Shown here in pieces: positions 48,238 to 50,247 of a stretch of 64,000 bases of DNA. Made by a program: the position numbers and the translations under genes. Origin of the DNA: Pseudomonadota bacterium (GTDB lineage Bacteria > Pseudomonadota > Alphaproteobacteria > Rhodobacterales > Rhodobacteraceae); contig JAJXZX010000014.1 in the NCBI GenBank assembly GCA_021779835.1, forward strand, positions 1 through 64,000, in the 5' to 3' direction. The notes beneath the pieces were generated by a model. That model did no database searches. It saw only the letters and a list, made by a program, of their open reading frames with translations, and was not told the origin of the DNA. Each line of letters opens with the position of its first letter. Position 1 is the stretch's first letter.

Positions 48238-48798
48238 ATGAGCAATTTCACCAGACGCGGTTTCTTGGTCAGCGCAGGCTCCGTCGCCACTCTGACCGCC
48301 GCTTGCGGTAATGGCGTCGGCAATAATGGCGCTGCCACGATCGACGCGCGGGTTGATGCGACGCAGGCCTATCTGCACAGCACCTACCCCGGCACGGACG
48401 AGCTGAAGAGAAAGGCCGTCGGCATCCTCTACTTCCCGCTTATCACCGAGGCGGGCTTTGGCATCGGTGGTGCCTACGGCCGCGGCGCGCTGCGCATCAA
48501 TGGCACCACGGTCGATTACTATTCCGCCGTCCGCGGCACGATCGGTTTCCAGATCGGCGGACAGCAATATGCCCACGTCATCTACTTCATGACCGAACAG
48601 GCGCTGTCGGATTTCCGCAGCTCTTCGGGTTGGGCAATGGGCGCCGATGCGCGCTATGCGGTGTCCAACAAGGGCGGCAGCCTAGGTATCGACACCACCA
48701 CCGAGATGGCGCCGGTCGTGGCGCTGGTGTTCGGTCAGGCCGGTCTTATCGCCGGCGCGACGCTCGGCGGCACCAAATACACCCGTATCCTGCCGTAA
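48238..48798 (+). CDS. SYLF/YSC84-domain lipoprotein with Tat-type leader
   Basis: A 186-residue protein. The leader FTRRGFLVSAGSVATLTAAC has a twin-Arg and also a lipobox T-A-A-C at Cys23, so it is probably exported folded by Tat and then lipidated. The rest is a single SYLF (Ysc84) domain, about 55-186: ELKRKAVGILYFPLITEAGFGIGG, YYSAVRGTIGFQIGGQ, SLGIDTTTEMAPVVALVFGQAGLIAGATLGGTKYTRI. Such domains bind phosphoinositides in eukaryotes; the bacterial role is unknown. AGAGG precedes the ATG. It is a single-gene unit. Confidence 0.8.
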   Translation: MSNFTRRGFLVSAGSVATLTAACGNGVGNNGAATIDARVDATQAYLHSTYPGTDELKRKAVGILYFPLITEAGFGIGGAYGRGALRINGTTVDYYSAVRGTIGFQIGGQQYAHVIYFMTEQALSDFRSSSGWAMGADARYAVSNKGGSLGIDTTTEMAPVVALVFGQAGLIAGATLGGTKYTRILP

Positions 48799-48937
48799 CC
48801 CGCGCAAGCCTTTCGTCTTTCGCACAAAACACGCACAAGTGTGGCACCCGCCCTATTTGTGCCCAAATTTAATGCGATGCGATGCAGGGAATGGCAATCG
48901 AAACGACGTTACCTGACGTGAAGCTGAGGCGTTTTTC

Positions 48938-50191
48938 ATGAGTACCACTTATACCTATAACAACAACTTCGACATTTACGGCAACCCGCTGAACGGCGCG
49001 ACGCAGACCTCCACCGGCACAGGAGTTGGCGTCACCAGTATCTCCAGCCCCTCGCCGGGCGATAGCGGCAACGAGTTTGCGTTTTTTTCTGGTAACAGTG
49101 AAAGCGCAACCCTCGCGCTACCGTCGCTCAACTTGACGGCGACACAAGAGGTCACAAGCTTTACCGCCAGTATGAACCTGACGATTCAGACCGGCACCAA
49201 TGACACCTTCGGCAACAAAGAACCCGATGGTGTCAGCTTCAACTTCGGCGGTACTGCCACTGCAGGCGCTGAAGAGCAGGGCACCAACACCGGTCTTTCC
49301 GTCGACATCATTCCCTACCAATGGGCGTCTCCGGGCGGCGGCAATAACATGCTGATCAAATGGAACGGCGTCGTGATCGGCACGACCAGCTTGAACAACC
49401 TAGGCTCGACAACGGCCGGCGCGACCGGGACGTTCCAGATTGGCGTGGATGCCGCGGGGCATGTCACGGCAAGCTGGGGCAGTTTCTCGGTCAGCGCCAC
49501 CATCCCGTCCGATCAGTGGGCCACGACCAGCCAAAGCAACTTCAACTTCAACATCGCGGGCCGCACCGGCGGTAACGCTGGCACCGCCTATATCGACAAC
49601 GTCAAGCTCAGCGCCACCGTGGTCTGCTTTGCGCGCGGCACGCTGATTGAAACCGAAACCGGTCCCCGCCGTGTAGAGGATCTGGCGGCTGGTGATCGCA
49701 TCCTGACCGTGGACAATGGCTATCAACCGATCCGCTGGATCGGATGCAGCCGTGTGCCGGCGCAAGGCCGCCTCGCCCCGATCCGCATCAACACCGGCGT
49801 GCTTGGCAACACCCGTCCGCTTATCGTGTCACCGCACCATCGCCTGTTGATCAGCGGTTGGCGCGCCGAATTGCTGTTTGGCGAACCAGAGGTTCTGGTC
49901 GCAGCCAAAGCGCTGGTGAACGACCACTCGATCCTCCGTCAGGAAGGTGGCCACGTCGATTATTTCCACGTTCTGTTCGATCAGCATGAACTGATCTATG
50001 CCGAAGGTGCGGTGGCCGAAAGCCTGTTCCTTGGCGCGGAAAGCCTGACGGCGCTCAGCGATGAAGCGCGCGGAGAGATTGAATCGCTCTTCCCGGATCT
50101 TGCCGAAACTGGTGAAGTCGCGCACTTCATCACTGCACGTCGGGTGCTTACCAGCAATGAAACGCGCGCCCTGCAAGCGCGCGCTGCCTGA
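48938..50191 (+). CDS. Lectin-like beta-sandwich protein with C-terminal Hint domain
   Basis: A 417-residue protein. The first 225 residues are Asn/Thr/Gly-rich and resemble an L-type (concanavalin-like) lectin: FDIYGNPLNGATQTSTGTG, EPDGVSFNFGG, NMLIKWNGVVIGTTSL, FNFNIAGRTGGNAGTAYIDNV. From Cys230 a Hint domain begins: CFARGTLIETETGPRRVEDL with the block A Cys, then RILTVDNGYQPIRWIG and SPHHRLLISG (block F), then a domain reaching about residue 360. Hint domains self-splice or cleave at their first Cys, so the lectin part may be released or attached to another molecule. No signal peptide is present. A bidirectional terminator follows. Confidence 0.75.
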   Translation: MSTTYTYNNNFDIYGNPLNGATQTSTGTGVGVTSISSPSPGDSGNEFAFFSGNSESATLALPSLNLTATQEVTSFTASMNLTIQTGTNDTFGNKEPDGVSFNFGGTATAGAEEQGTNTGLSVDIIPYQWASPGGGNNMLIKWNGVVIGTTSLNNLGSTTAGATGTFQIGVDAAGHVTASWGSFSVSATIPSDQWATTSQSNFNFNIAGRTGGNAGTAYIDNVKLSATVVCFARGTLIETETGPRRVEDLAAGDRILTVDNGYQPIRWIGCSRVPAQGRLAPIRINTGVLGNTRPLIVSPHHRLLISGWRAELLFGEPEVLVAAKALVNDHSILRQEGGHVDYFHVLFDQHELIYAEGAVAESLFLGAESLTALSDEARGEIESLFPDLAETGEVAHFITARRVLTSNETRALQARAA

Positions 50192-50201
50192 TCTCACAAC
50201 G

Positions 50202-50234
50202 CCAAAAGCCCGCCCATACCGGGCGGGCTTTTGG
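50202..50234. terminator. Bidirectional rho-independent terminator
   Basis: CCAAAAGCCCGCCC (50202-50215), a 5-base loop, then its perfect 14-base complement to 50234. The A and T runs at either side allow function on both strands, ending the Hint gene and the convergent dehydrogenase gene at 50248. Confidence 0.9.
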
Positions 50235-50247
50235 CCTGCGCGAACTG

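Follow-up and report, generated by a model that had tools for sequence, protein, structure and literature searches.

The 64,000-nucleotide window analysed here (positions 1 to 64,000 of contig JAJXZX010000014.1, from a bacterium of the Rhodobacteraceae) contains a gene in which a front domain is fused to a Hint domain. A preliminary description read the front part as L-type-lectin-like and the whole as a protein that might be released by a type I system or act as a self-cleaving surface or toxin-like protein. Does the Hint domain cut, what would it release, and how would the product leave the cell?

Gene structure

The gene is a single, real forward-strand ORF (48938-50191, 417 aa) with an ATG start; GAGG, read directly at 48926-48929, lies 8 bases 5' of it. 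The coordinates agree with those first given, as does Cys230 as the first Hint residue. The absence of a signal peptide also holds: by reading, nothing in the N-terminus MSTTYTYNNNFDIYG resembles the hydrophobic core of such a peptide. A feature missing from the preliminary description is the conserved, folded stretch of 51 residues after the Hint domain (the extension). The parts are listed in Table 1, with a downstream inverted repeat that is absent from the output of a terminator scan.

Table 1. Features of the target gene and its immediate surroundings.
Feature	Residues	Coordinates	Strand	Remarks
CDS: N-domain + Hint_2 domain + C-terminal extension	417 aa	48938..50191	+	
N-domain (passenger)	1-228	48938..49621	+	family without Pfam name; lectin fold unproven
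Hint_2 domain	229-366	49622..50035	+	PF13403 match and predicted HINT fold
Cys230	230	49625..49627	+	expected N-S acyl shift nucleophile; invariant among close relatives
Expected cut site	Val229 / Cys230 bond	just before 49625 codon		predicted from sequence
His301	301	49838..49840	+	block-B histidine in SPHH motif; 41/41 close, 45/52 overall
His350	350	49985..49987	+	block-F histidine in FDQHE motif; 41/41 close, 47/52 overall
Glu361-Ser362	361-362	50018..50023	+	at His-Asn position of inteins (block G absent); 41/41 invariant
C-terminal extension	367-417	50036..50188	+	predicted helical; conserved R.EI..LFPEL ... AR..L...EA..L
GC-rich inverted repeat, 15-base arms		50201..50235		terminator-like; between convergent genes; read directly

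Hint domain and catalytic residues

Hint_2 (PF13403) is the sole Pfam family above cut-off in the target protein. It matches residues 229-366 with E 2.2e-52 and 177.8 bits (cut-off 28.4), a sequence similarity far beyond chance. An AlphaFold model of the Hint domain plus extension, built from alignment A7 (target residues 227-417 and 19 viral-contig Hint proteins, 20 rows), has a mean pLDDT of 94.1 and a pTM of 0.88. The closest solved folds (Foldseek, VIA-align) are BIL domains and inteins, led by the BIL domain 2lwy (Z 14.2, rmsd 2.2, 117 residues) and 6y75 (Z 13.8), while Hedgehog 1at0 (Z 12.1) aligns from its residue 258 with model residue 4, which is Cys230. For most of the matched folds, the alignment stops at about model residue 136 (Ser362).

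The histidines of the SPHH and FDQHE motifs are those we take to be the block B and block F residues. We compared 52 distinct Hint_2 domains drawn from viral contigs, one plasmid, the own genome and genomes of the family. Where the target has Cys230, 44 have Cys, 4 Gly, 3 Ser and 1 Ala; 45 retain His301 and 47 retain His350. In a closer set of 41 domains (E <= 1e-55; L006, L054 and the second L033 domain left out), Cys230, His301, His350, Glu361 and Ser362 are all invariant. The block A Cys and block F His were thus rightly called intact, with His301 to be added. Degeneration of the Hint residues in relatives, which would have spoken against the first reading, occurs in distant paralogues but in none of the 41 closer domains. 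With the PF13403 match and its catalytic residues kept, the self-processing part of the earlier assignment is well supported, and the target Hint protein is probably active.

The C-terminal Asn and +1 nucleophile that splicing requires are replaced by Glu361-Ser362 followed by Leu363. Because Glu361-Ser362 stands in place of the His-Asn of inteins, splicing is not expected; by analogy with B-type BILs, the expected reaction would be N-terminal cleavage of the Val229-Cys230 bond.

The own genome has 11 Hint_2 loci, 5 of which keep the Cys. The six others (C48:63023-63430, C66:97957-98358, C73:131327-131722, C20:29381-29761, C49:26387-26797 and C10:33888-34295) have Ala, Gly or Ser at that position, and a Hint_2 domain therefore need not be active; judging by this substitution, the six are perhaps inactive modules retained for another role.

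The N-domain

The N-domain belongs to a rare sequence family that Pfam does not cover. It was found once among 61 relatives (own genome only), in 3 of 390 order genomes (own included), and in 394 family genomes as three strong matches (own included) and a further match of E 7.9e-9. A plasmid protein of Paracoccus seriniphilus (WP_245847094.1) that carries it is 45% identical across the whole protein. The genome_contigs set and the viral contigs contained no relative, and phages no significant one (best E 0.3). Of five relatives found, four have a Hint domain directly after the N-domain (L052, L053, L097 and the stop-interrupted L054); in the fifth, L098 (genome G026), the N-domain is embedded in an RTX protein of 3460 aa that itself ends with Hint_2 and the extension.

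The L-type-lectin-like label gained no support from sequence and profile comparison. The target N-domain has no significant match in Pfam, NCBIfam, PHROGs or PDB sequences; none of six N-domain members matched a lectin family or any Pfam family below E 0.09; and PDB sequences gave no significant match to the six-row profile (best E 1.5). Against a profile of three bacterial L-type lectins (PF18483), hhalign returned a probability of 1.3%, compared with 98-99% for same-depth controls (true lectins, N-domain). Structure prediction, the check proposed earlier, was informative for the Hint domain and extension, but the full-length single-sequence AlphaFold model reached a pLDDT of just 33.5. That the N-domain is all-beta is plausible only.

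An L-type lectin, which would make the target a self-released sugar-binding protein and is compatible with the explanation we prefer below, is possible, but we doubt it. The hhalign score of 20.15 exceeds all 100 of 100 column shuffles, and DG.SF, GLSV and RtGG patterns seen by eye seem to recall ConA-like domains. Yet the score is modestly above that of the reversed alignment (15.2), the hhalign register differs from the by-eye register, in which the residues of the E.D metal site vary, and the target alone scores 11.87 against the lectin profile, below unrelated passengers (up to 18.45).

Exchange of front parts and insertion of the gene

A tree of 56 Hint domains places the target beside L029 (96/84) in a group of seven rows (97/84), while the Hints of L052, L053 and L054 fall in a separate clade of 15 (98/94). 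A constraint that unites the Hints of the four N-domain carriers in this tree is 85.6 log units worse (p-AU 1.6e-7). The four were grouped by their shared N-domain; their differing tails had been seen before the test, and L097 was outside the tree. N-domain homology extends to the residues immediately before Cys230. As the Hint partners of the N-domain come from different Hint clades, the front parts have been swapped at the cleavage point. More generally, 111 passengers of >= 60 aa fall into 45 clusters, 33 of them singletons, whereas the Hints of the same 111 rows form one (both by BLAST linkage). The best reading is that Hint plus extension is a reusable carrier for recombined extracellular passengers.

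One locus, L116 (G780:C2:6000-18000), contains at least six Hint-motif ORFs of 317-418 aa with differing front parts; one carries the N-domain, and a stretch there reads N.

The target is surrounded by mfd-, hemB-, hflX- and hfq-like genes, a dehydrogenase and a penicillin amidase (names inferred from Pfam domains). All six same-genus genomes keep hemB, the Ysc84-like gene, the dehydrogenase and the penicillin amidase (the last tested via its first 400 residues) in this order, and none has a Hint gene between the second and the third, so that the target gene is a clean insertion of a single gene. The Ysc84-like gene directly upstream (48238-48795; PF04366, E 2.2e-9), itself conserved in 6/6 same-genus genomes, encodes a product with, by reading, a twin-arginine/lipobox-like start.

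Association with type I secretion

Since the neighbours are housekeeping genes, no secretion genes lie nearby, and T1SS genes in particular are absent near the target. Across genomes the picture is different. Hint_2 matches occur in 218 of 248 family genomes: 203 have both Hint and a PrtD over cut-off, 15 Hint only, 15 PrtD only and 15 neither. PrtD over cut-off is missing from 15/30 Hint-lacking and 15/218 Hint-bearing genomes (Fisher p 2.2e-8, ignoring phylogeny); with background set at E > 1e-80 it is missing from 12/30 and 5/218, respectively (p 4.3e-9, again ignoring phylogeny). The 30 genomes below the PrtD cut-off were assigned from listed E-values, consistent with the tally of 218, and ten unlisted Hint-lacking genomes were inferred from missing handles. 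Five of the 15 Hint-bearing genomes without PrtD, including the same-genus G006, have background ABC scores only and no TIGR03375 match over cut-off; TIGR03375 is uninformative for T1SS, because none of 18 genomes has one over cut-off. In the own genome a single PrtD passes the cut-off (C7:112444-114048), and an HlyD gene adjoins it.

By a crude hydropathy test, 36/39 closed Hint ORFs have no strongly hydrophobic segment close to their start, and RTX repeats (HemolysinCabind) occur in 12/51 Hint proteins (51 of 52 distinct Hint ORFs scanned), with none in the target itself (Pfam). The idea of type I export is supported indirectly by the lack of a signal peptide, the RTX relatives and the PrtD co-occurrence, but not by the gene neighbours; co-occurring secretion genes are found across the 248 genomes, but not next to the target. 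A folded extension at the extreme C-terminus is not typical of a type I signal and counts against export.

A conserved C-terminal extension

In the model, the extension forms helices at model residues 141-145, 149-158, 160-165 and 180-190, with block-mean pLDDT of 76-94. Its pattern, R.EI..LFPEL followed by AR..L...EA..L, includes five residues invariant in 30/30 rows, and it was present in all 12 genomes searched. Among the 50 of ~95 listed matches that we examined (50 loci), a Hint domain accompanies the extension in 50 of 51 extension-bearing ORFs, and the lone exception seems to be the remains of a broken Hint; four Hint ORFs in these loci have no match to the target-type extension model. 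More broadly, 30-80 residues follow the Hint in 111/116 distinct Hint domains, and a second type of extension, rich in arginine and histidine, is found among prophage-like and plasmid relatives. The VIA list contains no counterpart of the extension, and, spanning mainly model residues 1-139, barely tests it.

On the matches examined, we reject a generic type I signal role for the extension, which turned up in them only alongside Hint, the apparent remnant aside.

In one genome (G153) the Hint extension is matched 23 times; several of these matches sit close together, which suggests local Hint gene expansion. Hint_2 proteins with the Arg/His-rich extension occur in prophage-like viral contigs (L055, L058, L070, L074, L075, L078, L085); integrase- or lysozyme-like ORFs lie near the Hint in L055 and L058, and L058 holds two Hint ORFs. 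A BFVD search with the Hint plus extension model brought up predicted giant-virus proteins, from Cafeteria roenbergensis virus and Mimiviridae sp. ChoanoV1. The alignment of the viral protein A0A2Z4QG37 covers 188 columns (TMq 0.69) and thus probably includes the extension.

Proposed mechanism and alternatives

The explanation that we prefer, with somewhat more confidence than doubt, is that the target is a secreted, self-cleaving passenger-Hint protein resembling B-type BILs, whose passengers are recombined onto a carrier. Domain content, intact catalytic residues, the predicted HINT fold, conservation of the extension, passenger swapping, accessory insertion and PrtD co-occurrence are results of this analysis; from here we infer cleavage, export and the role of the passenger. 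Once made, the protein would most likely pass through a PrtD-type type I secretion system before it is cleaved. Cys230 would then attack the Val229-Cys230 peptide bond in an N-S acyl shift aided by His301 and His350, and resolution of the thioester by water or another nucleophile would free the ~23-kDa N-domain from Hint plus extension. As block G is missing, neither splicing nor Asn-driven C-terminal cleavage would follow. Different extracellular passengers would be recombined onto the same Hint plus extension carrier, with a passenger role that is probably surface or extracellular binding.

The fate of the thioester could be another. With block G absent, the classical reactions can lead only to an N-terminal thioester, and in a bacterial Hedgehog-like transacylase an acceptor recognised by the extension (a lipid, glycan, amine or surface protein) would attack it, leaving the passenger covalently anchored. 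The conserved, folded extension sits where Hedgehog has its adduct-recognition region and keeps company with Hint in nearly every ORF (the 50/51 above), and the clip-and-link reaction of FrpC-type RTX proteins offers a functional analogue (PMC7078468). However, no acceptor is known, and the fold listing hardly reaches the extension; we regard this outcome as unlikely. Its broadest form, a bacterial counterpart of Hedgehog autoprocessing in which Hint_2 plus extension passes interchangeable extracellular passengers covalently to a specific acceptor, is held with equally low confidence. If true, it would be a general carrier widespread in Rhodobacteraceae-type bacteria, acting on a small molecule, glycan or protein, and new passengers would be recombined exactly at the scissile bond.

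Also improbable, to a similar degree, is an inert or structural Hint that does not cleave and serves only as a C-terminal export or assembly module. In its favour, the Cys-less distant paralogues (6/11 in the own genome) still score as Hint_2, but the three catalytic residues are kept in the target and in every one of the 41 close relatives. Release of a C-terminal toxin, as by the Hint domains of polymorphic toxins (PMC3482391), is rejected as highly improbable, and with it the earlier toxin-like idea: no toxin-resembling domain follows the Hint, just 51 conserved residues common to RTX and non-RTX relatives, and the neighbours are housekeeping genes.

Comparison with known systems

Alone, the target gene is ordinary for its bacterial group, and its surroundings matter more: Hint active site and extension are conserved while front parts change completely, and Hint tracks the type I exporter. 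The small size of the target (417 aa) also makes it a handy construct with which to study the purpose of the thioester. The open-licence literature yielded no paper on the N-domain/Hint pair, in line with the earlier statement that experimental work was lacking; that statement holds for the exact pair, but B-type BIL cleavage and Hint domains in RTX proteins have been published.

B-type BILs, including Rhodobacter examples, and RTX flanks were reportedly described by Amitai in 2003 and Dassa in 2004. Like them, the target has a (predicted) HINT fold with blocks A, B and F and no block G; it has Cys230, His301 and His350 and no His-Asn end, and its cleavage is predicted from these residues. Type B BILs have no C-terminal motif and are described as cleaving at their own ends (N-terminus) (PMC7765530, PMC4031507).

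Hedgehog Hog (1at0) likewise joins a front domain, a Hint domain and a C-terminal extension. The Hedgehog Hint domain begins with Cys-Phe, as does that of the target. Unlike Hog, described as Hint plus SRR/ARR (PMC2362128), the target has an extension that is unrelated as far as seen, and no sterol evidence.

FrpC offers a parallel: a clip-and-link module by which secreted RTX-type proteins cleave themselves, with a different chemistry (Asp-Pro, Ca2+; PMC7078468). Nine putative RTX proteins are reported to be weakly homologous to Hedgehog/Intein domains and might autoprocess (PMC3034196). Hint and RTX domains are over-represented in responsive (fast-responding) marine Rhodobacteraceae according to PMC12487129, the available portions of which assign Hint no function. 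Roseobacter exoproteomes contain secreted RTX proteins (PMC3933643, PMC5489592), and inteins or hedgehog are not mentioned in the accessible portions of these two papers.

With bacterial L-type lectins (PF18483) the N-domain perhaps shares a beta-sandwich, at no significant profile match. Hint_2 proteins (PF13403) are like the target in combining a C-terminal Hint with a variable front part; unlike the Pfam model, the target has a front domain that belongs to no Pfam family and an extension that lies outside the model. The target is a probably active Hint protein of a familiar kind, and its front domain is rare and swappable.
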